Positions 45,203 to 61,513 of a stretch of DNA of 64,000 nt are shown one piece after another. The notes beneath the pieces are model-generated. The model had not been told where the DNA came from. It saw only the letters and a list, made by a program, of their open reading frames with translations, and did no database searches. Numbering within the stretch: the first letter of the stretch is position 1; each line of letters begins with the position of its first letter. Source of the DNA: Anaerolineales bacterium (GTDB taxonomy: Bacteria; Chloroflexota; Anaerolineae; Anaerolineales; UBA11579); the NCBI GenBank assembly GCA_026129335.1, contig JAHCIH010000009.1, positions 1 to 64,000 of the forward strand. Direction: 5' to 3'. A program made the translations under genes and the position numbers.

Positions 45203-46108
45203 TTACGACGCTGGCCCCAACAGCTCCACCCGGATTCCATCCTGGTCCTGCAGCACGACGCCATTGACCCCGTCGCGTTCGATGGGTTGCAAGGTCTGTC
45301 CGCCTGCCTCAAGTCGCTGAACCAGCGCATCCCAACCGGCGAGGTCAGGCACCTGGTAGCCATAGGAGAGCAGCCCGGTCTTGCCCGCCTCGCGCAGCGG
45401 CGCGCCGCGGCTGTGCCAGATGTTGGCGCCCAGGTGGTGGTGGTAACCGCCGGCGGCCATGAACAGAGCGGTAGGCATGGCCATCATCACCTCGAAGCCG
45501 AGCAGGTCGCCGTAGAAGGCCTGCGCAGCGGCGGTGTCGGAGACCTGCAGGTGGATATGGCCAATGACCGTCTGCGGATCGATGCGCCCTGTCTCGGCCG
45601 CCTCGCGGTCGGCCTCCTCCACCAGCTTGTTCAAATCCAGCGGCAGGTTGCCCATCTGGATGCTGTCCTGCAGCCGCGGCCAGTCGGCCCGCGGCCGGTC
45701 CCGGTAGATCTCAATACCGTTACCCTCCGGGTCGGCGAAGTAGATCGCCTCGCTGACCTGGTGGTCGGAGGCGCCCTGCAGTGGCCAGCCGCCGGCGGCC
45801 ACACGCAGCAGGGTCGTGGCCAGCGGCCCGCGGCCGGGGAACAGGAAGGCGGTGTGGTACAGGCCCACGCCGTAAGTGGACGAAGGCTGCAGCTCGGCCG
45901 CGGGGTTGTGCACCAGGGTCAAAAGGGCCTGGCCGCCCTCGGCGGCAGAGAGCCGGGCGCGGCCTTCGCCCTGCTCGAGCAGGTGGAAGCCCATCAGCCC
46001 GTTGTAGAAGGCCAGCATATTGTCCAGGTCGCGCACTTGCAGCTCCACATGGGCGATCTGCGTATCCGGGTGGATTTGGAAAGATGTGTCGGTTGGCATG
46101 GTTGACAT
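45203..46108 (-). CDS. VOC superfamily protein with two glyoxalase-like domains
   Basis: The 301-residue protein contains two VOC domains. The first includes HVELQVRDLDNMLAFYNGLMGF and NGIEIYRDRP, the second HIHLQVSDTAAAQAFYGDLLGF and YHHHLGANIW. The pattern resembles CatE-like catechol 2,3-dioxygenases and related metal-dependent enzymes, with His-His-Glu ligands likely in place. The reaction is unknown. It is divergent from the Cys-rich micropeptide gene, with 73 nt between the two starts. Confidence 0.85.
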   Translation of the reverse strand: MSTMPTDTSFQIHPDTQIAHVELQVRDLDNMLAFYNGLMGFHLLEQGEGRARLSAAEGGQALLTLVHNPAAELQPSSTYGVGLYHTAFLFPGRGPLATTLLRVAAGGWPLQGASDHQVSEAIYFADPEGNGIEIYRDRPRADWPRLQDSIQMGNLPLDLNKLVEEADREAAETGRIDPQTVIGHIHLQVSDTAAAQAFYGDLLGFEVMMAMPTALFMAAGGYHHHLGANIWHSRGAPLREAGKTGLLSYGYQVPDLAGWDALVQRLEAGGQTLQPIERDGVNGVVLQDQDGIRVELLGPAS

Positions 46109-46181
46109 ATTGACCCTGGTCTATTAGTATTTCTTACATAGATGGCTGTCTATAAAACCATTGCTGAAGAAAGGAGACATC

Positions 46182-46253
46182 ATGCCTGTTCAAGACCCTG
46201 AATTGAGCATCCTGGACTGCGGTTGTGGATGCGGCGGCGGAGGCTGCTGCTAA
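46182..46253 (+). CDS. 23-residue Cys/Gly-rich micropeptide
   Basis: The frame has a strong AAGGAG ribosome binding site at proper distance. It encodes an acidic N-terminal half beginning MPVQDPELSIL and a C-terminal tail CGCGCGGGGCC with five cysteines. It ends in a perfect hairpin shared with the convergent arsR-type gene. It could be a metal-binding peptide, or a precursor modified on its Cys/Gly tail: the acidic leader plus Cys tail recalls ribosomally made, modified peptides. The start, stop and ribosome site are visible; function is unknown. Confidence 0.65.
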   Translation: MPVQDPELSILDCGCGCGGGGCC

Positions 46254-46267
46254 AAACCCGTTGAGCC

Positions 46268-46310
46268 AATGGCCGCCTTGCAGGCAGGACGCTGCAGCAG
46301 GGCGGCCATT
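46268..46310. terminator. Hairpin between micropeptide and ArsR gene
   Basis: AATGGCCGCC (46268-46277) is a perfect reverse complement of GGCGGCCATT (46301-46310). It sits between the two convergent stop codons. Confidence 0.65.
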
Positions 46311-46631
46311 TTAAGTATTGAGCTTGGCCAGTTTGCTGGCCGCTTTGGTCTCTGGAGCAAACGAGCGCAACAGCCAGCCGCAGCAAGCGGCCACCTGCTC
46401 CTGGTTGAGCGTGTAGAAGGTGTGCTTGCCCTGCTCTTTCACTTCGACCAGGCCGGCTTCGCGCAGCACGGCCAGGTGGTGGGACACCGTCGGCTGGCTG
46501 ACGTCCACCGCGGCGACGATCTCATTGACCGAGCGCCAGACACAGCAGCAATAGTCCATGATCTGCTGGCGGGTGGGATCGGCAAGTACCTTGGCAAAAG
46601 CGACGGAATCGAGGGCAGGCTTGGACTTCAT
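46311..46631 (-). CDS. ArsR-family transcription regulator with Cys triplet
   Basis: The 106-residue winged-helix repressor has the helix-turn-helix VDVSQPTVSHHLAVLREAGLV and the wing that follows. It carries a CCC triplet in MDYCCCVW in the helix where arsenite sensors have their metal cysteines, and a CC pair near the C-terminus, so it probably senses a thiophilic metal or metalloid. I chose the ATG at 46631, behind GAAAGA. It is convergent with the Cys-rich micropeptide. Confidence 0.87.
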   Translation of the reverse strand: MKSKPALDSVAFAKVLADPTRQQIMDYCCCVWRSVNEIVAAVDVSQPTVSHHLAVLREAGLVEVKEQGKHTFYTLNQEQVAACCGWLLRSFAPETKAASKLAKLNT

Positions 46632-46724: not shown

Positions 46725-48968
46725 CTATTCCCCCGGAATCCCTAATTCATCTCGAGGAAATAAATCAGTATTGATCCGGAGGATATCCATGTTTGGTCGA
46801 TGTGGTACAGGTTCTAATTGATCGAGCAAATTTTCTAGTCGCACCAGCAAGCTTTCTTCATCGAAATACCCATTCAAATATAGGCCACTTTTAAGGCGCT
46901 CCATGATTACGGCGCGGTTAATCTCGATTGGCGTCATACTCCCAATCAGCACTATACGCGGGATTTCCACTATATATGGAAAAACTTTACGGAAAGTATT
47001 GCGGACTCTCGGCGTGGCTGACCACTGCACCATATAGCCGCCCTCTTTTAACCTGCTTCTAGCCAGTTCGAAAAATTCGATTGAATAAAGAAATCCACTC
47101 CCGGATTTGTATGGACGTATTGCATCCGCTTCAATAATGTCAAAATTCTGGTCGATATGGGTGAGAATCTTGCGACCATCACCCATCAGTATTGAATATC
47201 TCGGATCGTTAAAAAGAGTGTTAACCCCATGTTGGGGATTGCCCTGGGCGACAGATTCTAGCAAGGGTTTTTGCGAACTAACAATCTCAACGGCCAGAAT
47301 GCTTTGTGTAGCTGGGTTGAATCCTGCAGCTACAGGTGTGTTGCCTGAGCCAATTCCAAGCACAAAAACATTCTCAGGGTTCGGGTGGATTGACGTGGCT
47401 AGAAACCCGAGAGTCGTGTGGATAGAATCTACACCGTAACGGAAATAACCCTCCGTCTCGGCATTGACAGCTAGCGTGAGTTGCTCACCAACCAACAGGG
47501 CACTAACTCCGCTTGAGTCCTCGGCCAGCTCAAGGAACTCGTACTCTGGCATTTTGTAGTCGTGTAGTTCTTTCCAGAAGCCTGAATTGCTTGGCATGAT
47601 TATTAAACACAATGCTAATGCCCCTGCGAGCAGATGATCTTGATGAATGCCACGCCGAACTTTTTGGCGTAGACTGAAGAGGACAAAGACGACGCCAGCG
47701 ATAAGAGCTACTCTAAGTGCTCCGATTGTCCCTACGTAGTGAAAGAGCACTAGACCGGTAAGTACACTGCCTAAAACATTCCCAATGGTTCCTGCGAACT
47801 GAAGAAAACCAATACGCGTGCCAATCAAGTTGAGATTGGTTTGGATCCCTCGCTGTAGTATCGTGAATGAATAACCGATGAATATATTAGGGGGTAAGAG
47901 AAGAAGACTCGGGATGACAATGAAATCCAGTACCCATTTGTTAGAGCTGTTTTGGAAAGCCTCACTCATGATAAGCGAATTATAAGATCCGCCCAAGTGA
48001 CTGAAAAATATGAGTGAAATAACTGTATATAGAATTGCGTAAATGAGTAATCGGCTGTAGAGGAGATGGGGCGATAGCGATGATGATCGTTTTGTAGCCA
48101 GTAGACTTCCTATGCTATAACCAGCTAGGACGAATGCTAGTAAATGTCCAAATGAATAGGCACTTGTGTATAACACTACGCTTAAAACCCGAAACCACAC
48201 CAGTTCCATAGAAATGGCAATATAGCCTGCGAGAATAACTAGACCTGCCCATGTAAGCAAGCTTTTGCTGGGTTCTTCTTCCCTCGGTGCTAACTTCTGG
48301 GATTCCACATTAGATTTATTTTGAAGCGTCAACGGTATTACCTGCGCCAAGGCAAAGGCGAAGCAGCCTACGCTCAAACTTATCAGGCTGGCCGTTAGGA
48401 GTGTGCCTCCATAACCCAGGCGAGGAACAAGCAGCCACCCACCAACTAAGGCGCCTGTGACCGATCCCAAAGTATTGATGCCATAGAGAGTGCCGATTTG
48501 CTTAGATGCTTTTTTGGCCGTCCTCACTATGGCCCTTGAAATTAGTGGAAGCGAAATTCCCATTAGGAGCGTGGGGAATAGCAAGAACAAGAAAATAACA
48601 AAAAAGCCTAAGGCAAAGCTTTCTGCAAGCCAAAACAGTTCTTGTGAAAGCAGTTTATGAAAAAAGCGGTTACTCAAATAGCCATAGAGGCCGATTGCTA
48701 AATTGCTTAAGGCAAAAACTTGCATTGCCCGTTGTGACGTGAGTTTGTCGGAGTAGCGCCCTGCAAGCAGGTTTCCTAACCCCAACCCTGCGAGAAAACC
48801 ACCGATGACCAAAGCTGCTGAACGCACATCGGACCCTGCAAAAAGGTTCAGCATACGTTGCCAGGCAACTTGGTACAACAGCGCGCTGAAGCCAGATGCA
48901 AAGAAAGCGAACGCGCTTAACCAAGATATCTTTGGTAGATTTATGTGGATTTTATTGTTTGTCGGCAT
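46725..48968 (-). CDS. Membrane-fused spermidine synthase-like protein
   Basis: The 747-residue protein has an N-terminal half with many hydrophobic segments like an MFS or fused spermidine-synthase transporter. The C-terminal domain is Rossmann-like with VFVLGIGSGNTPVA and FDIIEADAI, typical of aminopropyltransferase-like SAM folds. Such fusions are common and not shown to make spermidine. GC is clearly lower than in both neighbours, suggesting horizontal gain. It is bounded by a terminator-like hairpin at 49046-49078. Confidence 0.8.
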   Translation of the reverse strand: MPTNNKIHINLPKISWLSAFAFFASGFSALLYQVAWQRMLNLFAGSDVRSAALVIGGFLAGLGLGNLLAGRYSDKLTSQRAMQVFALSNLAIGLYGYLSNRFFHKLLSQELFWLAESFALGFFVIFLFLLFPTLLMGISLPLISRAIVRTAKKASKQIGTLYGINTLGSVTGALVGGWLLVPRLGYGGTLLTASLISLSVGCFAFALAQVIPLTLQNKSNVESQKLAPREEEPSKSLLTWAGLVILAGYIAISMELVWFRVLSVVLYTSAYSFGHLLAFVLAGYSIGSLLATKRSSSLSPHLLYSRLLIYAILYTVISLIFFSHLGGSYNSLIMSEAFQNSSNKWVLDFIVIPSLLLLPPNIFIGYSFTILQRGIQTNLNLIGTRIGFLQFAGTIGNVLGSVLTGLVLFHYVGTIGALRVALIAGVVFVLFSLRQKVRRGIHQDHLLAGALALCLIIMPSNSGFWKELHDYKMPEYEFLELAEDSSGVSALLVGEQLTLAVNAETEGYFRYGVDSIHTTLGFLATSIHPNPENVFVLGIGSGNTPVAAGFNPATQSILAVEIVSSQKPLLESVAQGNPQHGVNTLFNDPRYSILMGDGRKILTHIDQNFDIIEADAIRPYKSGSGFLYSIEFFELARSRLKEGGYMVQWSATPRVRNTFRKVFPYIVEIPRIVLIGSMTPIEINRAVIMERLKSGLYLNGYFDEESLLVRLENLLDQLEPVPHRPNMDILRINTDLFPRDELGIPGE

Positions 48969-53978: not shown

Positions 53979-54010
53979 AATTGGTAAGTAGCAATTACTA
54001 CTTACCAATT
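53979..54010. repeat. Palindrome between divergent leaderless genes
   Basis: AATTGGTAAGTAG (53979-53991) is the perfect reverse complement of CTACTTACCAATT (53998-54010). It shares the 11-mer TTACCAATTAC (54002-54012) with the repeat at 20732-20806. Confidence 0.7.
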
Positions 54011-54025
54011 ACCAAGCGTTGCATG

Positions 54026-54031
54026 TATACT
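54026..54031 (+). promoter_or_regulatory. -10 box of the radical SAM gene (leaderless)
   Basis: TATACT lies 6 nt before the ATG at 54038. No ribosome binding site is present. Confidence 0.55.
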
Positions 54032-54037
54032 CTTTCC

Positions 54038-55657
54038 ATGGCCGTCGCCCTTCGCCCCAACACCGTGAACGCGCTCTGGCAGGGCATCCGCCAGGACGCC
54101 GGCAGCCTCCTGGCTGCCCTGCAGCCTCCCGAAACCCCCAGTACCGGATTGCATTTCTACGACATTGAGAAGCCCGACGGGCGCACTTTCCGCATCCACC
54201 TGCGCGTGGAGCCCAGCGGGAACGGCGTGCTGTTCATCGACGTCACCGATGTGGTCCACCTCAACCAGACCGCTACGCTGATGGCCAAGATGGCGCTGGA
54301 CGGCGTGACGCGCGCCGCCGCACGGGCGCGGCTGGCGGCCTGGCGCAGCGGCGCAGACCCCGCCCGCTTGAGCAGCGAGCTGGACGAAATGTACGACATG
54401 GTCGACAGCTTCCGCCACCCAGATGGCGACTGCGCCACCTGCCGCCTCTCAGATGCGGTGTCCATGTCGCCGCTGTTCAGCATCGAGATCAACGCGCCCT
54501 ATAAAGTGGACATGGCGTTGACCTATGGCTGCAACAACGAGTGCCCGCATTGCTACAATGAAAACGACCGCCTGCAGATGCCTTCGCTGCCGTTGGACGA
54601 GTGGTACGCCGTGCTGGACCGCCTGGCCGAGTTGGGCGTGCCGCACCTCATCCTCACCGGCGGCGAGGCCACCTTGCACCCCGACCTGCCCCAAATCATC
54701 CGCTATGCGGATAGCCTGGGCATGGTGGTGGGCCTGAACACCAACGGCCGCCACATCGCCCACAAGCCTTATATGGATGAGCTGGCCGAAGCCGGCTTGA
54801 ACCACGTGCAGATCACGCTGGGCTCCAGCCGCGCCGAAGTGCACGACGCCATGATGGGCGCTACCTCCTTCGAGCAGACCCTGCGCGGCATCGAGAACGC
54901 CGTGGCCAGCCGCGTGCACGTGATCACCAACACCACGCTGATGCGCGCCAACATGGGCCACGCCGAAGAGATCATTGAATTTCTCTATTCGCTGGGCATC
55001 CGCACCTTTGCGATGAACGGCATGATCTATTCCGGCGGCGGCTTCGATCATCCTTCGGCGATCTCCGAGGCGGAGACGCCCGCGCTGCTGGTGCGGGTGC
55101 GCGACAAGGCCCAGGAACTGGGCATGCGCTTCCTGTGGTACACGCCCACCGAGTACTGCCGCATGTCCCCGGTAGAGCTGGAGATCGGCGCCAAGCGCTG
55201 CAATGCCGGCGAGTATTCGCTGTGCATTGAGCCCAACGGCGATGTGCTGCCCTGCCAGTCCTACTACGTTTCGGCGGGCAATATTCTGCACGACCCCTGG
55301 GAGCAGATTTGGGACGGCGAACTGTTCCGCTCCTTCCGGCATCGCGAGGAAGACCCTAAAGGCTACGGCCTGCCGGAGAAGTGCTGGACCTGCCCCGACC
55401 TGCCGCTGTGCGGCGGCGGCTGCCGTATCGAGCGCGAGGCCCGCGACGGCGTGCGCGTGGCCGGCGAGGGCGGCGGTGGCTGCTCCGGCTGCAGCGGCAG
55501 CTGCGGCACCGGGGGCGCGGCGCACTCCATCAAGAGCCACGTGCACACGGCCGGCTATATCCCCACCGGCGGATTCATCCCCTCGCCCAGCACCACGCGC
55601 ACCACGGTGCGCTCCAGCGGCAACATGTCACTGATCGGCCTGGAGGAAGTACAGTAG
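54038..55657 (+). CDS. Radical SAM/SPASM protein with PqqD-like N-terminus and Cys-rich tail
   Basis: The 539-residue protein has three visible parts. Residues 35-110 look like a PqqD/RRE domain (RIHLRVEPSGNGVL, VVHLNQTATLMAKM). The radical SAM core has the cluster motif C-x3-C-x2-C in YGCNNECPHCYNEN (near residue 165) and GGEATLHPDL. A SPASM region follows with CNAGEYSLC, LPC and CWTCPDLPLCGGGC. The last 70 residues are Gly/Cys/Ser-rich (GGGGCSGCSGSCG) and then Thr/Pro-rich. Such proteins modify peptides; the substrate is unknown. The ATG at 54038 follows TATACT by 6 nt. Confidence 0.87.
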   Translation: MAVALRPNTVNALWQGIRQDAGSLLAALQPPETPSTGLHFYDIEKPDGRTFRIHLRVEPSGNGVLFIDVTDVVHLNQTATLMAKMALDGVTRAAARARLAAWRSGADPARLSSELDEMYDMVDSFRHPDGDCATCRLSDAVSMSPLFSIEINAPYKVDMALTYGCNNECPHCYNENDRLQMPSLPLDEWYAVLDRLAELGVPHLILTGGEATLHPDLPQIIRYADSLGMVVGLNTNGRHIAHKPYMDELAEAGLNHVQITLGSSRAEVHDAMMGATSFEQTLRGIENAVASRVHVITNTTLMRANMGHAEEIIEFLYSLGIRTFAMNGMIYSGGGFDHPSAISEAETPALLVRVRDKAQELGMRFLWYTPTEYCRMSPVELEIGAKRCNAGEYSLCIEPNGDVLPCQSYYVSAGNILHDPWEQIWDGELFRSFRHREEDPKGYGLPEKCWTCPDLPLCGGGCRIEREARDGVRVAGEGGGGCSGCSGSCGTGGAAHSIKSHVHTAGYIPTGGFIPSPSTTRTTVRSSGNMSLIGLEEVQ

Positions 55658-55666
55658 GGGACGGCT

Positions 55667-56209
55667 TTGCGACGCAGGAATTCGAATAGGCTCCAGGGTT
55701 ATGATTACTCCTTACCCGGAGCCTATTTTGTTACCTTGCTTACCAATGAGCGAGCGCCGTTGTTTGGAAAAGTCCATGAAGACAAGGTGATGCTCAGCGC
55801 GCTTGGTGAGTTGGCACAGAGAGAATGGCGGCTATCGGCCGCGATGCGACAAGAAATACGATTGGATGAGTTTGTCGTTATGCCAGACCACTTTCATGCG
55901 ATTGTTTTTATAGATGATCATGATTCCAGAAGCGGAGAACCCCTAAAAAAGACCGTAGGGGCGCACGGCCGTGCGCCCCTACAAGGAGATCAAGCTAAGC
56001 CTCAATCGCGGAAGCCAAGGTCACTGGGTTCGCTAATCGCTGCTTATAAAGCGGCCAGCACGCGTGTAGTTAGGCAGCATCTTGAGAATCCCGACCTAAA
56101 AGTATGGCAGAGAAATTATTATGACCGTGTGGTTCGAAATCAAAATGAACTGGAGCGCATTCGTGAGTACATCGCTTACAACCCTCTGAAGCTTTGGGAG
56201 GGGTGGTGA
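55667..56209 (+). CDS. REP-associated tyrosine transposase (RAYT, Y1 type)
   Basis: The 180-residue protein has the N-terminal RLQGYDYSLPGAYFVT, the HxH motif in VVMPDHFHAIV and a Tyr near SLIAAYK that would be the nucleophile. It therefore looks intact. It starts with TTG at 55667. Its coding region contains a perfect 28-nt palindrome (55955-55982) translated as VGAHGRAPL, apparently inserted in frame. Low GC and position 10 nt after the radical SAM gene suggest a mobile insertion that split the neighbourhood. Confidence 0.85.
   Translation: MRRRNSNRLQGYDYSLPGAYFVTLLTNERAPLFGKVHEDKVMLSALGELAQREWRLSAAMRQEIRLDEFVVMPDHFHAIVFIDDHDSRSGEPLKKTVGAHGRAPLQGDQAKPQSRKPRSLGSLIAAYKAASTRVVRQHLENPDLKVWQRNYYDRVVRNQNELERIREYIAYNPLKLWEGW
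55955..55982. repeat. Perfect 28-nt GTAGGGGCG palindrome inside transposase gene
   Basis: The 14-nt half GTAGGGGCGCACGG is followed directly by its reverse complement. The first nine bases match the intergenic palindrome at 30437-30487. It is in frame and does not disrupt the transposase reading frame. Confidence 0.9.
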
Positions 56210-56276
56210 TGTTCGGATTAGACCCTAGGCGGCGCGCCGCCGTGCGCTCCCACAACTCACGACAGCCGAGGTGAGT

Positions 56277-57143
56277 ATGCCCATTGATCTCGCGTTGTTG
56301 TTTGCGCTAATCCTGGCTCTGGCCTACGGCATTTTCCGTTATCTGCGCTGGCGGCGGGAACGGATGCTGCCCTACACACCGGCGCTGGCGCGCATTGAGG
56401 GCGGCGGGGTCAAGCGCGGGCTGACGCCCGCCGAGGGCGCCGTGCTGCTAGGCCGCCCGCTGCACGTCACCCTGACCCTGGTCATCTTCGAGATGCTGCG
56501 CAAAGGCTTCCTGCGCCAGGTGGCTGCCGAGCCGCTCACCGTCGAGGTGGCCGAGGCCTTTCGCACGCACAACCGCGGCCTCAGCCCGCAGGCGCGCGGC
56601 GACCAGCGCCGCGCCGCCGCGCAGGCGATCAACGCCACCCTGCACTTGTACGAAGAGCCGTTCCTCGAGATCATCGAGGCGCACCCCGGCCGCCCGGTGG
56701 CTGAGCTGGACCTGGGCGTGGCCGTGCAGCCGCTGGTGCGCTATGTAGCCGGCCGGGTGGGCGGCTACAGCCTGGAGGAGAGCCGCGAATATTACCGCCT
56801 GATCATCGAGCGCGCCCCGCGCGAGGCGCGCAGCGACGGCCGGCTGACCTTCGAGCGCCAAAAAGTGTTGGATCGCAATTTCGGTTGGGTGCTGTTGGGC
56901 GAAGACTTCGCCGCTGTGCTGGACGCGCCCGAGTTGAGCTATCTGCCGCTGTGGCTGCGCCCGCCGCGTGCCGCCGTCGATGAGCTGGGCGGGCGCAGCT
57001 TCGCCGCCTGGGCGCAGGCGGTGATGGATTCGCTGGCCGGGGTGGTCGCTGAAGACGATGTGAGGCTGACCCTGGGCCGCGAGGAAGACGCCACCACGGC
57101 GACCCTGCTCAGCGACATCACCCGCACGACATTTTACGGATGA
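56277..57143 (+). CDS. DUF2207-like membrane protein lacking a Cys tail
   Basis: The 288-residue protein has one N-terminal transmembrane segment (LALLFALILALAYGIFRYL) and a soluble part related to the cytosolic half of the protein at 59448-61163: both share R-RM-YTPALARIEG--KRGLT--E-AVLL-like wording and later DRNFGWVLLGEDF / NLEWTMMDKNY. It lacks the N-terminal DUF2207 signal-peptide domain and the Cys-Ala tail. A GTG at 56271 and this ATG are alternatives. Probably a truncated or specialised paralog; function unknown. Confidence 0.7.
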   Translation: MPIDLALLFALILALAYGIFRYLRWRRERMLPYTPALARIEGGGVKRGLTPAEGAVLLGRPLHVTLTLVIFEMLRKGFLRQVAAEPLTVEVAEAFRTHNRGLSPQARGDQRRAAAQAINATLHLYEEPFLEIIEAHPGRPVAELDLGVAVQPLVRYVAGRVGGYSLEESREYYRLIIERAPREARSDGRLTFERQKVLDRNFGWVLLGEDFAAVLDAPELSYLPLWLRPPRAAVDELGGRSFAAWAQAVMDSLAGVVAEDDVRLTLGREEDATTATLLSDITRTTFYG

Positions 57144-57196
57144 GCCTTTGCGAGTTTGATTTATGATTGGCTCTTAGTTGAGTCAAGGAGAACCAG

Positions 57197-58117
57197 ATGT
57201 CTAAATCCCCGAGCCTGTATAAAGCCGAAGATGCCTTCCGCGATTATGTGCCGCGCACTCAGGCGTTCATGGAACTGGGCGCCAAGGCTGGCTTGCGCCC
57301 CGCCGCCGAGGACAAGGCCCGCGGCGCGCTGGTGGTCATCGACATGCAGAACGACTTCGTGCGCCCCGACGGCGCGCTGAGCGTGCCGGGCGCGGAGGCG
57401 GATTTGCAGCGCCTGGTGGAATTCATCTACAACAACGCCGAGCAAATCAGCGCCATCTACTGCACGCTGGATTCGCACTACCCGATGCAGATCTTTTACA
57501 GCGAGTGGTGGCACAACCCGGCCACCGGGGAGCAGCCGGCGGCCTTCACGGTCATCACCGCCGAGAACGTGGCCAATGGCGTTTGGGCCGCCCGGCAGGA
57601 CGCCGAGTGGTCGCAGCACTACGTGGCCGAGTTGGGCAAGCTGGGCCAGAAGCAGCTGATGATCTGGCCCAAGCACACCATGGTAGGCACCTGGGGCCAG
57701 GCGCTGTCGCCGGCGCTGTACGAGGCCATTGCCTGGCACAGCGCCGCCCGCCTGGCGCAGCCGGTCTTCGTGTCCAAGGGCGACCTGCCGCAAGTGGAGC
57801 GCTACGGCGCCTTCGCGTCCGAGGTGGAGTATCCCGGCGACCCGCGCGGCCGCGCAGACAGCGCCTTACTGGACGAGCTGGCCGGCTACGAACGCACCTG
57901 GTGGGCCGGCGAAGCGGAGACGCACTGTGTCATCGCCAGCCAGGTGCAGGCCGCGGAATACTTCGCCAATCAGCCCAAGGTGCTGGAAGGCATGCACTTT
58001 CTGATGGACTGTACCAGCCCCATCTTGCACCCCGAAGTGGACTTCGTCGGCCCGACGCGGGCGGAGCAAGAACGCCTGGCTGGGCTGGGCGTGAAATTGG
58101 TCAAAAGCACGGATTAG
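57197..58117 (+). CDS. Nicotinamidase/isochorismatase family hydrolase
   Basis: The 306-residue protein has the cysteine-hydrolase triad: Asp in VIDMQNDF, Lys in IWPKHTMVG and Cys in ETHCVIAS. This matches nicotinamidase-related enzymes, which cleave amides, but the family also includes isochorismatases and ureidoacrylate hydrolases. It is longer than typical nicotinamidases (about 200 residues). CAAGGAG precedes the ATG, and a strong terminator follows, so it may be a single-gene unit. Confidence 0.83.
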   Translation: MSKSPSLYKAEDAFRDYVPRTQAFMELGAKAGLRPAAEDKARGALVVIDMQNDFVRPDGALSVPGAEADLQRLVEFIYNNAEQISAIYCTLDSHYPMQIFYSEWWHNPATGEQPAAFTVITAENVANGVWAARQDAEWSQHYVAELGKLGQKQLMIWPKHTMVGTWGQALSPALYEAIAWHSAARLAQPVFVSKGDLPQVERYGAFASEVEYPGDPRGRADSALLDELAGYERTWWAGEAETHCVIASQVQAAEYFANQPKVLEGMHFLMDCTSPILHPEVDFVGPTRAEQERLAGLGVKLVKSTD

Positions 58118-58131
58118 GCTTCAGACAAAAA

Positions 58132-58165
58132 GAGGCCGGTCGCAGACCGGCCTCATTGTTTTTCG
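58132..58165 (+). terminator. Terminator after the nicotinamidase-like gene
   Basis: GAGGCCGGTC (58132-58141) pairs with GACCGGCCTC (58145-58154), followed by ATTGTTTTTC. Confidence 0.85.
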
Positions 58166-58167
58166 AT

Positions 58168-58262
58168 GTCATTGCGAGGAGACCCGGCGTAGCCAGGGTC
58201 GACGAAGCAATCTGAACTGTTTTTTGCGAAATGAACCTGGGGATTGCTTCGTCCGCAATGAC
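58168..58262. repeat. Dispersed palindromic repeat, copy 3
   Basis: It starts GTCATTGCGAGG and ends GCAATGAC, with internal arms GACGAAGCAATCT (58201-58213) and GATTGCTTCGTC. Its inner parts match copy 2 closely. It lies between the convergent nicotinamidase-like and degenerate radical SAM genes. Confidence 0.82.
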
Positions 58263-58269
58263 GTGATGC

Positions 58270-59448
58270 CTAAACCTTAGCTTTCCAGATCTTGCTCCAT
58301 TTGTCCGTCAGCATATTGCCCAGTACTTTCTTGCCGCCCTGGCCGGCCAGCACATCGCCGTCCGGTTCCACGTAGAGCCAGGCGCGGCCAGCGCCGTCTG
58401 GCGCTTTGGTTTTCTGTGCCTTGAGTTCCAGGCTCACGGGGTTCAGCGCCGAGTAGGGCACCGGCATGTCCCAGACCAGCGGCAGGCCCACGTGGTTGGC
58501 ATGGTCGGCGGCGGCTTGCAGCTGCTCGCTGAGCGCCGCATCGCTCTCGCTCAGCGAGAGCGCCCGCACGCCGCTCTCGGCGATGCGGTCAATCAGCGCG
58601 TTGATCGTCTTGGCGTTCTGCTTGGTCAACGTCAGGTGGGCGGCGATGAAAATGTCGTCGTCCAGCACCTTGCGCCAATAGGCGAAGCTGGCCAGCGAGT
58701 CCCAGGTCTCTTCTTTGTTGGGCTGCAGCACGATCATGGCGTGGTCCAGGCCGGCGTCGAGTAAGGTTTTCAAATAGCGCGTGTCACCCAGTTTGCGGCC
58801 GTCGGTGATCAGGCCGGTGACCAGGCCGTGGGCCTCGCCGTGCTGCAGCAGCTGCGGCAGGTCCTCACGCAGGGTTGGCTCGCCGCCGGTGAAGAGCACG
58901 TGCGGGATGCCGACCTCATAGGCCTTGTCGATCACCTGCTTCCATTCGTCGGTGCTCAGCTCTCGGGTCACGCGCTTGTGCGGCGTGGCATCCCGCGGCG
59001 CGCCGGCGGGCAGCTTGTAGGTCAGCGCGCAGTCCAGTCGGTAGGGCGCGGTCATCGGGTCGCTATATGGAGCCTGGCGTTCGAGGTCCAGGTAGGTCAC
59101 CGGGTCGAGGTCTGGCGTCTCGATGAGCGTCTGCAAGCTTTGGGCGAAGTCGGCGTAGTCTTGCTTGACCTGCTTTTTACTGGTGCGGTAACGTTTGCTG
59201 ACCTGGGCGGCGACTTCATCCGGCGGGGTCAGATGGATGAAGTGGTAAGCGTATTCAGTGGCTGTCTGGTTGAGGTGCAGCACAGTGGACGCATTGAGCA
59301 CCAGCAGTCCCAGCCCGCCCGGCTCGACGCGCAGGTGCAAGCGGTAATGGAATGGGTGGCTGGCCGGCGCAGTGTAGGTATAAAAGCCGGGTTCCAGCGG
59401 CGCGGCAGGTTCGCCGCCGATGCCGAAGCGTTCCAGCAGGCCGGGCAT
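58270..59448 (-). CDS. PqqD/radical SAM-like protein without cluster cysteines
   Basis: The 392-residue protein has an N-terminal PqqD/RRE-like domain (LHLRVEPGGLGLL, VLHLNQTATEYAYHFI, then a KRYRTSKKQVKQDYADF helix). It continues into a radical-SAM-like barrel with GGEPTLREDLPQLL. Where the paralog at 54038 has the C-x3-C-x2-C motif, this one reads YKLPAGAPRDATPHK, and the SPASM cysteines are also absent (VEPDGDVLAGQGG). It is therefore likely non-catalytic. Its ATG shares one base with the upstream stop (TAATG), so translation is coupled to the Cys-tailed protein. Confidence 0.85.
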   Translation of the reverse strand: MPGLLERFGIGGEPAAPLEPGFYTYTAPASHPFHYRLHLRVEPGGLGLLVLNASTVLHLNQTATEYAYHFIHLTPPDEVAAQVSKRYRTSKKQVKQDYADFAQSLQTLIETPDLDPVTYLDLERQAPYSDPMTAPYRLDCALTYKLPAGAPRDATPHKRVTRELSTDEWKQVIDKAYEVGIPHVLFTGGEPTLREDLPQLLQHGEAHGLVTGLITDGRKLGDTRYLKTLLDAGLDHAMIVLQPNKEETWDSLASFAYWRKVLDDDIFIAAHLTLTKQNAKTINALIDRIAESGVRALSLSESDAALSEQLQAAADHANHVGLPLVWDMPVPYSALNPVSLELKAQKTKAPDGAGRAWLYVEPDGDVLAGQGGKKVLGNMLTDKWSKIWKAKV

Positions 59449-61163
59449 TAGCGACCGCCTCCGGCGCAGGCACAGGCGCAGCCCGCACAGGCGCAGGCGC
59501 ACGAGGAGCCGCCGCCGCTAAATCCGCCGCCACCACTGCTGGTGCGGCTGGGCGGCGGGGGTGGGTTGGTCACCTTGGTCACGCCGCCAGTGAAGCTGGA
59601 CAGGTTGCCGATCACGCCGCCGGCCATGTTTTGGGCGCCCTGCACCACAGAGGCGGCGAAGTTGCCGCCCGGCAGGGTGGGCAGCGAAACACCGCCACCG
59701 GTGGACCGCGTTGGAGCGCTCGGCGCCCGCCCGCTGCCCGCGCCGGCGCTGCGGTAGGTCGGGTCGTAGCGGCCCCACCACATCGGCGCGTGCACGGTGC
59801 CGCCGCCGAAAGTATCCCGCGTGCGGCGCTCGTAGTTCTTGTCCATCATGGTCCACTCGAGGTTCTCTTCGTAGAGCTTGCTCTGGACCTTGGGCGTGCC
59901 CGCGGCTTCTACCTGTGTCCAGGCATCCTCGGCGATCTTGCGGTAGAAGTCCGTCGTCTCGCGTTTGCTGAAGCCGCGCATCTTGTTGCCCACGCCTTTG
60001 ACCAGGCGCACCATCATGTCCTGTAGCTCCTTGCGGCGCTTGGTGGTGTTGCCCTCTCGGAAGGCGCCGATGAACTGCTGTTCATAATCGCGCAGCTCCA
60101 ACGGGTAGGGCGGTTCGGCGATCTTCAGTTCCAGCGGAGTTTGTTTGACCACTTCGGCGACGCCCTTCTTGATCGTCGAGAAGAGGATCATGCCGAGGAT
60201 CTTGTCCATCGGCTGCTCCAGAAGCACGGCGGCTTCCGGCGCGGTCAGGCCACGCTTGATGCCGTGGCCCTCAATGGCGATCTTGGGCGGCAGGTACTGC
60301 ATGCGCCGCTTGCGCTCGGCGGCGAAGCTGGCCCAAATGATCACGATGATGAAAATGGCGAAGCACAGGCAGAGCAGGAAGGGGATGACCACTTCGGGGT
60401 CCAGCCCCAGTCGCTGCCAGATGCTGGGCTCCAGGATGGCGCCGGCGGGCACATAGTGTGCCGGGAACGACGCGCCGAAGACATACTCCCGCGACGGGCT
60501 GGCGCTGGTATTGCGCCAGGTGTAGGTGATGCGGCCCTGGCTGTCCCGGCCGGTCAACGGCTCATCGGGGAAGCCGGGGTGGCCGGCGGTGTGCCAGCGC
60601 GGTTCGTCCGGCGTGACCCCGTGCGGCAGGTGGAAAGTGACCGTCAGGTCGGTGGTGCCGTAGGTGAACTCGCTGCCGAAGTAATTGGGCATGAACAGCG
60701 CGCTGGCGTAATCGCTGTCCTGGTTGTCGGTGTAGAGCACCTCGCGGATGCCCACCACCCGCGCCCGGAAGGTGCCGCTGGCCCCACCGGGGATCGGGTT
60801 GCTGAACCAGATCGCCGGTCCGGCGTCGATGTAGGGCGATTGGCGGTCAATAAACGAAGCCGGCTGGCCGTTGAGCGAAGCGCTGATCGCGCCAGCCGAA
60901 TAATTCCTGTTCGGCAGGCCCAGGTCGACCACGTCGATGGGGTGCGCGCCGACGCCGTTCTGGAATACCACTTCGTATTCCACGGTCATCGAGCCGTCGG
61001 TTTCCCAATAGACGTCCACCCAGGCGCGCGGGACGGAGAAGTAGTAGTCCTGCGCCGCGGCGCTGAACGGCGCGGCCAAGGCGACGACGAGGACCAACAG
61101 TAGCGGCAGCGCGCGCCAGAACGATTTGAATTTGTTTTGGGCCGGGGTGGAGCGGTTTACCAT
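59448..61163 (-). CDS. DUF2207 membrane protein with C-terminal Cys-Ala tail
   Basis: The 571-residue protein starts with a signal peptide (LPLLLVLVVALAAPFSAAAQ). A DUF2207 extracytoplasmic domain follows (VEYEVVFQNGVGAHPIDVVDLGL). A transmembrane segment (VVIPFLLCLCFAIFIIVIIW) and a cytosolic region related to the protein at 56277 come next. After a Gly/Ser linker it ends with the residues CACACAGCACACAGGGR, six cysteines in eleven residues. The ATG at 61163 overlaps the upstream stop, and the downstream radical-SAM-like gene overlaps its stop. The tail is a plausible target of post-translational modification. Confidence 0.85.
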   Translation of the reverse strand: MVNRSTPAQNKFKSFWRALPLLLVLVVALAAPFSAAAQDYYFSVPRAWVDVYWETDGSMTVEYEVVFQNGVGAHPIDVVDLGLPNRNYSAGAISASLNGQPASFIDRQSPYIDAGPAIWFSNPIPGGASGTFRARVVGIREVLYTDNQDSDYASALFMPNYFGSEFTYGTTDLTVTFHLPHGVTPDEPRWHTAGHPGFPDEPLTGRDSQGRITYTWRNTSASPSREYVFGASFPAHYVPAGAILEPSIWQRLGLDPEVVIPFLLCLCFAIFIIVIIWASFAAERKRRMQYLPPKIAIEGHGIKRGLTAPEAAVLLEQPMDKILGMILFSTIKKGVAEVVKQTPLELKIAEPPYPLELRDYEQQFIGAFREGNTTKRRKELQDMMVRLVKGVGNKMRGFSKRETTDFYRKIAEDAWTQVEAAGTPKVQSKLYEENLEWTMMDKNYERRTRDTFGGGTVHAPMWWGRYDPTYRSAGAGSGRAPSAPTRSTGGGVSLPTLPGGNFAASVVQGAQNMAGGVIGNLSSFTGGVTKVTNPPPPPSRTSSGGGGFSGGGSSCACACAGCACACAGGGR

Positions 61164-61513
61164 TTGGGTTTCTCTTCGACCTGGTAGACCGCGCCGCAAT
61201 AAGGGCATTCCACATTCAGCGCGCCGCCCACCAGGCGCACATTGTCGCCGCTGAGCGCGCCGCCGCACTGGCGGCACTGGAAGTTCTCCAGGTTTACGTC
61301 ACCGCTCAGTTCGACCTGGTAGGTGACCTTGTGCTCCTGGGCTGCGGGGTCTTTGCGGTTGACGTACCAGATGATCGCCAGGCCGATGGCGCTGCTCAGC
61401 GCGCCGACCGCGATCCAGCCAATGCCGCCGCCTTCTTCACTGAAAGCGCCCCAAATAAAAAGCACGCCAAAAAATACAAGAATGGCGGCTACGATGTTGC
61501 CGACTGTTTTCAT
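61157..61513 (-). CDS. Membrane protein with C-terminal zinc ribbon
   Basis: The 118-residue protein has two transmembrane segments (VGNIVAAILVFFGVLFIWGAF and GWIAVGALSSAIGLAIIWYV). A soluble tail follows with CRQC and CPYC, two CxxC pairs likely to bind zinc. Its last codons overlap the next gene's ATG by 7 nt, so it is the first gene of a three-gene operon with the Cys-tailed protein and the degenerate radical SAM protein. Role unknown; perhaps a scaffold or metal-binding partner. Confidence 0.8.
   Translation of the reverse strand: MKTVGNIVAAILVFFGVLFIWGAFSEEGGGIGWIAVGALSSAIGLAIIWYVNRKDPAAQEHKVTYQVELSGDVNLENFQCRQCGGALSGDNVRLVGGALNVECPYCGAVYQVEEKPKW

Follow-up and report, generated by a model that had tools for sequence, protein, structure and literature searches.

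A conserved cysteine-rich micropeptide gene beside an ArsR repressor in an Anaerolineales genus, with a suggested link to arsenic

The 64-kb window (the whole stretch of DNA analysed here) contains a frame of 23 codons followed by a TAA stop, which encodes the peptide MPVQDPELSILDCGCGCGGGGCC. It lies between the convergent gene of an ArsR/SmtB-family repressor and the divergent gene of a two-domain VOC (glyoxalase-fold) protein. A reading made from the sequence alone had picked out this frame for its strong ribosome site, acidic leader and cysteine tail, and had described the regulator as carrying a CCC triplet and a CC pair. All of these observations hold, as do the orientations given for both neighbours. 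The peptide has 5 Cys, three acidic residues, no basic and no aromatic residues, and ends in a Cys/Gly tail. The features of the locus, in order along the window, are:

45203..46108, minus strand: divergent gene for the two-domain VOC protein (Pfam Glyoxalase), possibly co-regulated
46102..46107, plus strand: -35 element TTGACA, with its place and 17-bp spacing conserved in the set
46109..46124, no strand: putative operator 1, an imperfect inverted repeat in the promoter spacer, conserved in position; relatives match the pattern better, G005 exactly
46125..46130, plus strand: -10 element TAGTAT, in an arrangement conserved in the set
46138..46153, no strand: putative operator 2, ATAGATGGCTGTCTAT, directly after the -10 element; the sole match to the pattern in its own genome, and found in 12/12 genomes
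46170..46176, plus strand: ribosome-binding site AAAGGAG, recognised by sequence, five bases before the ATG
46182..46253, plus strand: Cys/Gly micropeptide gene, 23 aa, conserved at 12/12 loci (the genus plus G012)
46268..46311, no strand: terminator-like hairpin between the convergent stop codons (MFE -40 kcal/mol, z -3.7 for 46248-46330)
46311..46631, minus strand: ArsR/SmtB-family repressor, 106 aa, with CCC at residues 28-30 and CC at 83-84 (NCBIfam HTH_metalloreg over cut-off)

Since the hairpin separates the convergent stops, the peptide gene seems to be transcribed as a separate unit. A strict filter for such genes (frames of 12-45 aa, preceded by a ribosome site, with four or more Cys that make up 20% or more of the residues) returned exactly one match in the window, the frame at 46182-46253, and, as a control, one match in a total of 400 kb sampled evenly from the single-contig relative G004.

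We searched for the ArsR in 61 genomes of the lineage and inspected the flanks of 30 fetched loci. A peptide of 19-23 aa with a Cys/Gly tail, flanked by the divergent VOC gene and the convergent arsR, was present in 11/11 searched genomes of the genus, its own included (estimated completeness 68-96%, with G004 and G007 being single contigs). A homologous peptide occupies the equivalent place in G012, which belongs to a different genus of the same family. The search of related genomes that the sequence-only reading had proposed as a check thus found the frame kept beside both neighbours, and AAGGAG precedes every peptide in the genus set. Among the relatives (for example MSTESTELQILSNGSCCGGGGCC, MFTPDEQLSVLESGCCCGGTGCC, MFAKDEELAVIGDGGCCGGTGCC, MTEAQSLCECGCCGDGGCC and MYGYDPECCGDDCCGGGGSDCC) the leader drifts while the Cys and Gly of the tail are retained. 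For the eight members that align without gaps, pairwise differences at codon positions 1, 2 and 3 numbered 195, 141 and 250, and single-base codon differences in the nine-codon Cys/Gly tail were synonymous in 50 cases versus non-synonymous in 15, these counts being taken over pairs of related sequences and hence not independent events. A chance frame is ruled out by the conservation in 12/12 genomes together with the single strict match in the 400-kb control.

The peptide had no family match in NCBIfam or Pfam, even at E values up to 1, and none in PADLOC; Rfam gave no match either. Like bacterial metallothioneins of the SmtA/BmtA type it is small, rich in Cys and poor in aromatic residues, and it had no match to the models of those families in Pfam or NCBIfam. 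Of 301 genomes belonging to the order, an alignment of the micropeptide (A2) picked up 17 at E <= 1 but failed on G001 and G002, both carriers by flank reading, so the class is underestimated by sequence search alone. Standard annotation by length and homology would miss a gene of 23 aa.

The promoter region carries a pattern that would tie the peptide to the regulator. Putative operator 2 matches the inverted repeat ATAGAYN4RTCTAT and lies 36 bp (in one case 35 bp) from the start of the -35 element, and the spacer copy, operator 1, is mostly imperfect across the genus set. In 12/12 genomes the peptide promoter has this pattern, which is nearly absent elsewhere (G007 has one extra site and G010 two, none of them close to a recognised arsenic gene), whereas a reversed control pattern was present in 1/12 genomes. 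At locus L012 a scripted scan took a later TTGACA, and the promoter arrangement was assigned there by direct reading. Named assemblies supplied 51 ArsR loci of Anaerolineae. The 28 kb nearest to arsR, reaching 200 bp on its upstream and 350 bp on its downstream side, contained 36 sites, versus 2 in the other 480 kb; a site was present at 24 of the 51 loci, or at 34 with a relaxed pattern. No such operator was found in front of the ArsR gene of the window. Thus, one operator marks this ArsR group elsewhere and the peptide here. Inverted repeats lying over the promoter and common to what appear to be the regulator's other targets suggest that the peptide gene is an ArsR-controlled unit.

The regulator has four cysteines that do not vary among 18 aligned orthologues. 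Two of them, C29 and C30, precede the helix-turn-helix, and the other two, C83 and C84, would fall within the helix predicted at residues 77-91. In a visual comparison with the As(III) sites in PMC11868830, these positions fit none of the R773, AfArsR, CgArsR and ArArsR types described there, and the CxC at the R773 position is absent from the window ArsR. Because its cysteines lie outside these described site types, arsenic as the inducer is inferred from the gene neighbours. Matches of the ArsR in PADLOC were set aside as helix-turn-helix similarity only.

These neighbours point to arsenic. A methyltransferase motif follows the ArsR orthologue at 40 of the 51 Anaerolineae loci, by a motif test covering other families of the order. 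All six tested proteins of one kind beside such peptides scored above the curated cut-off of the arsenite methyltransferase family NF008823, and the other tested peptide neighbours (4/4) exceeded that of the ArsI/CadI family NF041414. In the genus itself we found no arsM over cut-off (0/11 genomes), no acr3 (0/11) and, in the good assemblies, no arsB (0/8), with weak ArsB-family matches in G003, G005 and G012. Generic methyltransferase matches below cut-off turned up in every genome, including 14/14 control genomes, and arsM was therefore scored by cut-off alone. Given this inventory, the peptide may be the main output of ArsR in the genus.

The VOC gene adjoins the peptide gene at 12/12 loci of the genus set, via a short common intergenic promoter region, and was not found at the other fetched ArsR loci. 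Its protein has no Cys. The idea that it is an ArsI C-As lyase is not supported, as NF041414 was not among the best 25 of 38 families and the Cys pair is missing; the divergent VOC gene is not known to have a role in arsenic chemistry. On the other side of the locus, beside arsR, a stretch of lower G+C (46725-48968) encodes a 747-aa membrane and spermidine-synthase-like protein. The genus-mates shown have a metallophosphoesterase-like gene pair in its place, which gives the stretch the look of something inserted or replaced locally.

Seemingly unrelated cysteine-rich peptides of 13-31 aa also adjoin ArsR, ArsM or ArsI/CadI in other Chloroflexota, Dormibacteria, Actinomycetota and Acidobacteriota. 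Applied to 80 ArsR loci, the strict filter gave 13 matches within 1.5 kb of arsR (249 kb) versus 0 in the other 571 kb; by eye about nine of the 13 look genuine and L124, L102, L123 and L073 chance-like, and L053, L054 and L071 are close relatives. The L056 peptide, with 4 Cys in 23 aa, fails the filter and stands outside the 13. Matches beyond Anaerolineae include MDAKRCECDCCKGGNCC from an Actinomycetota assembly and MDDCETGGCCGDGCC from Acidobacteriota, and further matches are MPCDCPCGTCPCPCGC (Chloroflexi CF_96) and MPCDCPCPCECPCVGGCL (Candidatus Aeolococcus, Dormibacteria by NCBI taxonomy). Whole-genome draws yielded peptides at 8/29 loci in the phylum of the Aeolococcus genome, G304 (for example MSCDCPCGSCPCPCGC, MSEPCCPQPCCPSPVCCPPQSDEPCC and MDENTVASAVPQDCCGDCCCEGCGDDCDGCC) and at 1/29 new loci in Actinomycetota, both draws resting on the best-matching 30 ArsR loci, so that these are not rates for all ArsR genes. 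Six matches came from arsM loci, of which L170 is chance-like and L173 and L176 repeat loci already counted. The tallies overlap, some L loci being contigs of G genomes (for example L051/G001, L056/G013 and L057/G058). Five plasmid ArsR loci from named actinobacteria (of 12 rows) had no such frame even with a looser filter, and a plasmid search with one 31-aa peptide found no match, for which its length and the low-complexity filter are perhaps to blame.

Gene layouts vary: the peptide gene is divergent from arsR and placed before arsI/cadI or before arsM, lies between arsR and arsM, or comes after arsM. Strict or near-strict frames occurred at 6/51 Anaerolineae ArsR loci; in the wider ArsR group the peptide is optional. 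We tabulated 32 peptides, a hand-picked list from which L003, L006, L008 and L054 were omitted as identical or nearly so, along with weak rows, and to which L017, L020 and L029 came via a different filter. Each has 4-12 Cys, 31/32 have no His, and most show a CC-spacer-CC or CxC series, a spacing that would accommodate As(III) as a three-coordinate or MAs(III) as a two-coordinate species. Between groups the peptides resemble each other in little beyond Cys richness, which fits repeated origin; at such short lengths common descent is the alternative. The ArsRs of L109, L110 and L130 have the classical CVCD site, and such peptides hence pair with more than one ArsR type.

Two further observations concern these loci. 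Near an ArsR orthologue at L029 (G044), the frame at 1229-1336 encodes 35 aa, 12 of them Cys (MTNPNPSTPTEATTNACCDCCSCCNCCSCCGKGCC); no other peptide in the set is as rich in Cys. At L171 (1270-1362) and L190 (772-861) a Cys micropeptide is divergent from an arsM-like gene, and the short flank fetched there shows no recognisable ArsR. Some of these peptides may thus accompany arsM and answer to a different regulator.

Our combined findings make it probable that the micropeptide is a stand-alone, ArsR-repressed and ribosomally made mini-metallothionein that chelates arsenicals. The gene, its promoter and operators and the regulator are conserved, and they are linked to arsenic genes; from this we infer that ArsR binds both operators, that an arsenical is the inducer, and that the peptide is translated and binds arsenic. 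In the resting cell, ArsR seated on both inverted repeats would block transcription. A trivalent arsenical (As(III), perhaps MAs(III) or Sb(III)) would bind the cysteines of ArsR, upon which the repressor would leave and the peptide be made. With its clustered Cys, small Gly spacers and acidic leader, the peptide would then hold the metalloid as a thiolate, away from protein thiols. A metallothionein-like peptide under a metal-sensing regulator was one of two readings offered from the sequence alone, and it is well supported by the genomics, in that the frame has been kept along with its promoter, the operators and ArsR; ArsR orthologues beside arsM and analogous peptides in ars operons add to this support. 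The operators and the link to arsenic are additions of the present analysis.

The other reading offered was a modified peptide related to a Cys-tail system 8 kb away. At 53981-61277 the window encodes a radical-SAM protein with a Cys/Gly-rich segment of its own, a second, diverged radical-SAM-like protein (58270-59502) and a membrane protein with a terminal CACACAGCACACAGGGR tail. The first radical-SAM protein is conserved in 11/12 searched genomes, mostly with the second copy nearby.

Four other explanations have to be weighed against an arsenical-chelating peptide. That the peptide is a precursor modified by the radical-SAM system would account for the Cys/Gly-rich tails found in both, and the two lie 7.8 kb apart in the window and ~9.4 kb apart in G009 and G010. 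However, the system is close to the peptide in only 3/12 genomes (G000, G009 and G010). The distance is 225-290 kb in G001, G002, G006 and G007; in G004 the system lies near the opposite end of the linear contig, and in G005, G008 and G012 it is on a different contig from the peptide. It was not found in G003, which carries the peptide. The analogous peptides adjoin ars genes instead. We regard such a modification as very improbable, and this option of the earlier reading is not supported. We give no more credence to a Cys-responsive leader peptide (an attenuator), in which translation would matter rather than the product. Poly-Cys short frames act in this way in mycobacteria, the frame is short and Cys-rich, and at some loci arsM or arsI comes next. 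In the window, though, the neighbour beyond the stop is convergent and preceded by a hairpin, so that no co-directional gene lies downstream to be attenuated; G058 and G013 have the frame behind arsM, and there is no Rfam match.

Two explanations keep the metal-binding product and change its task, and both seem unlikely to us. In one, the peptide is a general soft-metal metallothionein: ArsR senses, and the peptide binds, Cd, Zn, Cu, Hg or Pb instead of arsenic. CadI, a relative of ArsI, is linked to cadmium, which speaks for this option, and bacterial zinc metallothioneins use His, which speaks against it given that all but one of the tabulated peptides lack this residue. Many soft metals are bound by Cys-rich peptides. 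The known ArsR/SmtB repressors of metallothioneins sense Zn, Cd and others, according to the available portion of PMC8790569; against this, the ArsR group found here adjoins arsM. In the other, the peptide is an arsenic metallochaperone that passes As(III) to an enzyme or pump, or a thiol carrier for ArsM in place of glutathione. ArsD, which hands As(III) to ArsA, provides the model, and in other lineages the peptides adjoin arsM or arsI, some between arsR and arsM or right after arsM. In the genus, however, there is no known partner to receive the arsenic, since arsM over cut-off, acr3 and (in good assemblies) arsB were not found.

The arsenical-chelating mini-metallothionein can be compared with several known systems. 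Control of metallothioneins by ArsR-family proteins is established, and, as far as the consulted part of PMC8790569 describes it, the AzuR-NmtA pair has the same components: an ArsR/SmtB-family repressor, an inverted-repeat operator in the promoter and a small Cys-rich intracellular product. The regulatory logic of SmtB-SmtA equals that of the window's arrangement as well. Unlike SmtA and NmtA, the product here is less than half as long and has no match in Pfam or NCBIfam, and the class neighbours arsM and arsI suggest arsenic rather than zinc or cadmium. Judged by its sequence and setting, the micropeptide would operate like an ArsR/SmtB-controlled metallothionein yet is assigned to no metallothionein family. 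The arsR-arsM and arsR-arsI operons have the same ArsR group and operator, and some contain a Cys micropeptide, whereas in the genus, which lacks arsM over cut-off, the peptide stands alone beside a non-ArsI VOC gene. ArsD is a folded metallochaperone of ~120 aa, encoded in ars operons, that works with ArsA and has Cys pairs for As(III); in contrast, the window's product has 23 aa and no family match. Engineered tetracysteine (FlAsH) tags bind arsenical dyes, and phytochelatins are short, thiol-rich peptides made by an enzyme. The CC-spacer-CC spacing of the listed peptides resembles that of the tags, although the window's own peptide has CGCGCGGGGCC and not two CC pairs, and unlike tags or phytochelatins the micropeptide is natural, gene-encoded and placed behind an ArsR switch. 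Among the titles and abstracts listed by our literature searches, which covered few subscription papers, none describes such arsenic-linked Cys micropeptides.

In the sections of PMC11868830 available to us, bacterial arsenic defence is described as efflux, redox change and methylation, and intracellular chelation is ascribed to eukaryotes. If our interpretation is correct, chelation by tiny gene-encoded peptides would join the bacterial defences, and would suggest how a genus in which arsM, acr3 and (in good assemblies) arsB were not found copes with arsenic. The locus also exposes a class of genes that annotation based on length and homology passes over. More tentatively, and with the balance slightly against it, arsenical-trapping micropeptides of ~13-35 aa may be widespread, having arisen repeatedly in the arsenic operons of several phyla and taking the place of methylation and efflux as the main output of the switch in this genus. 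Such a class would in effect constitute ribosomally encoded phytochelatins or natural tetracysteine tags.
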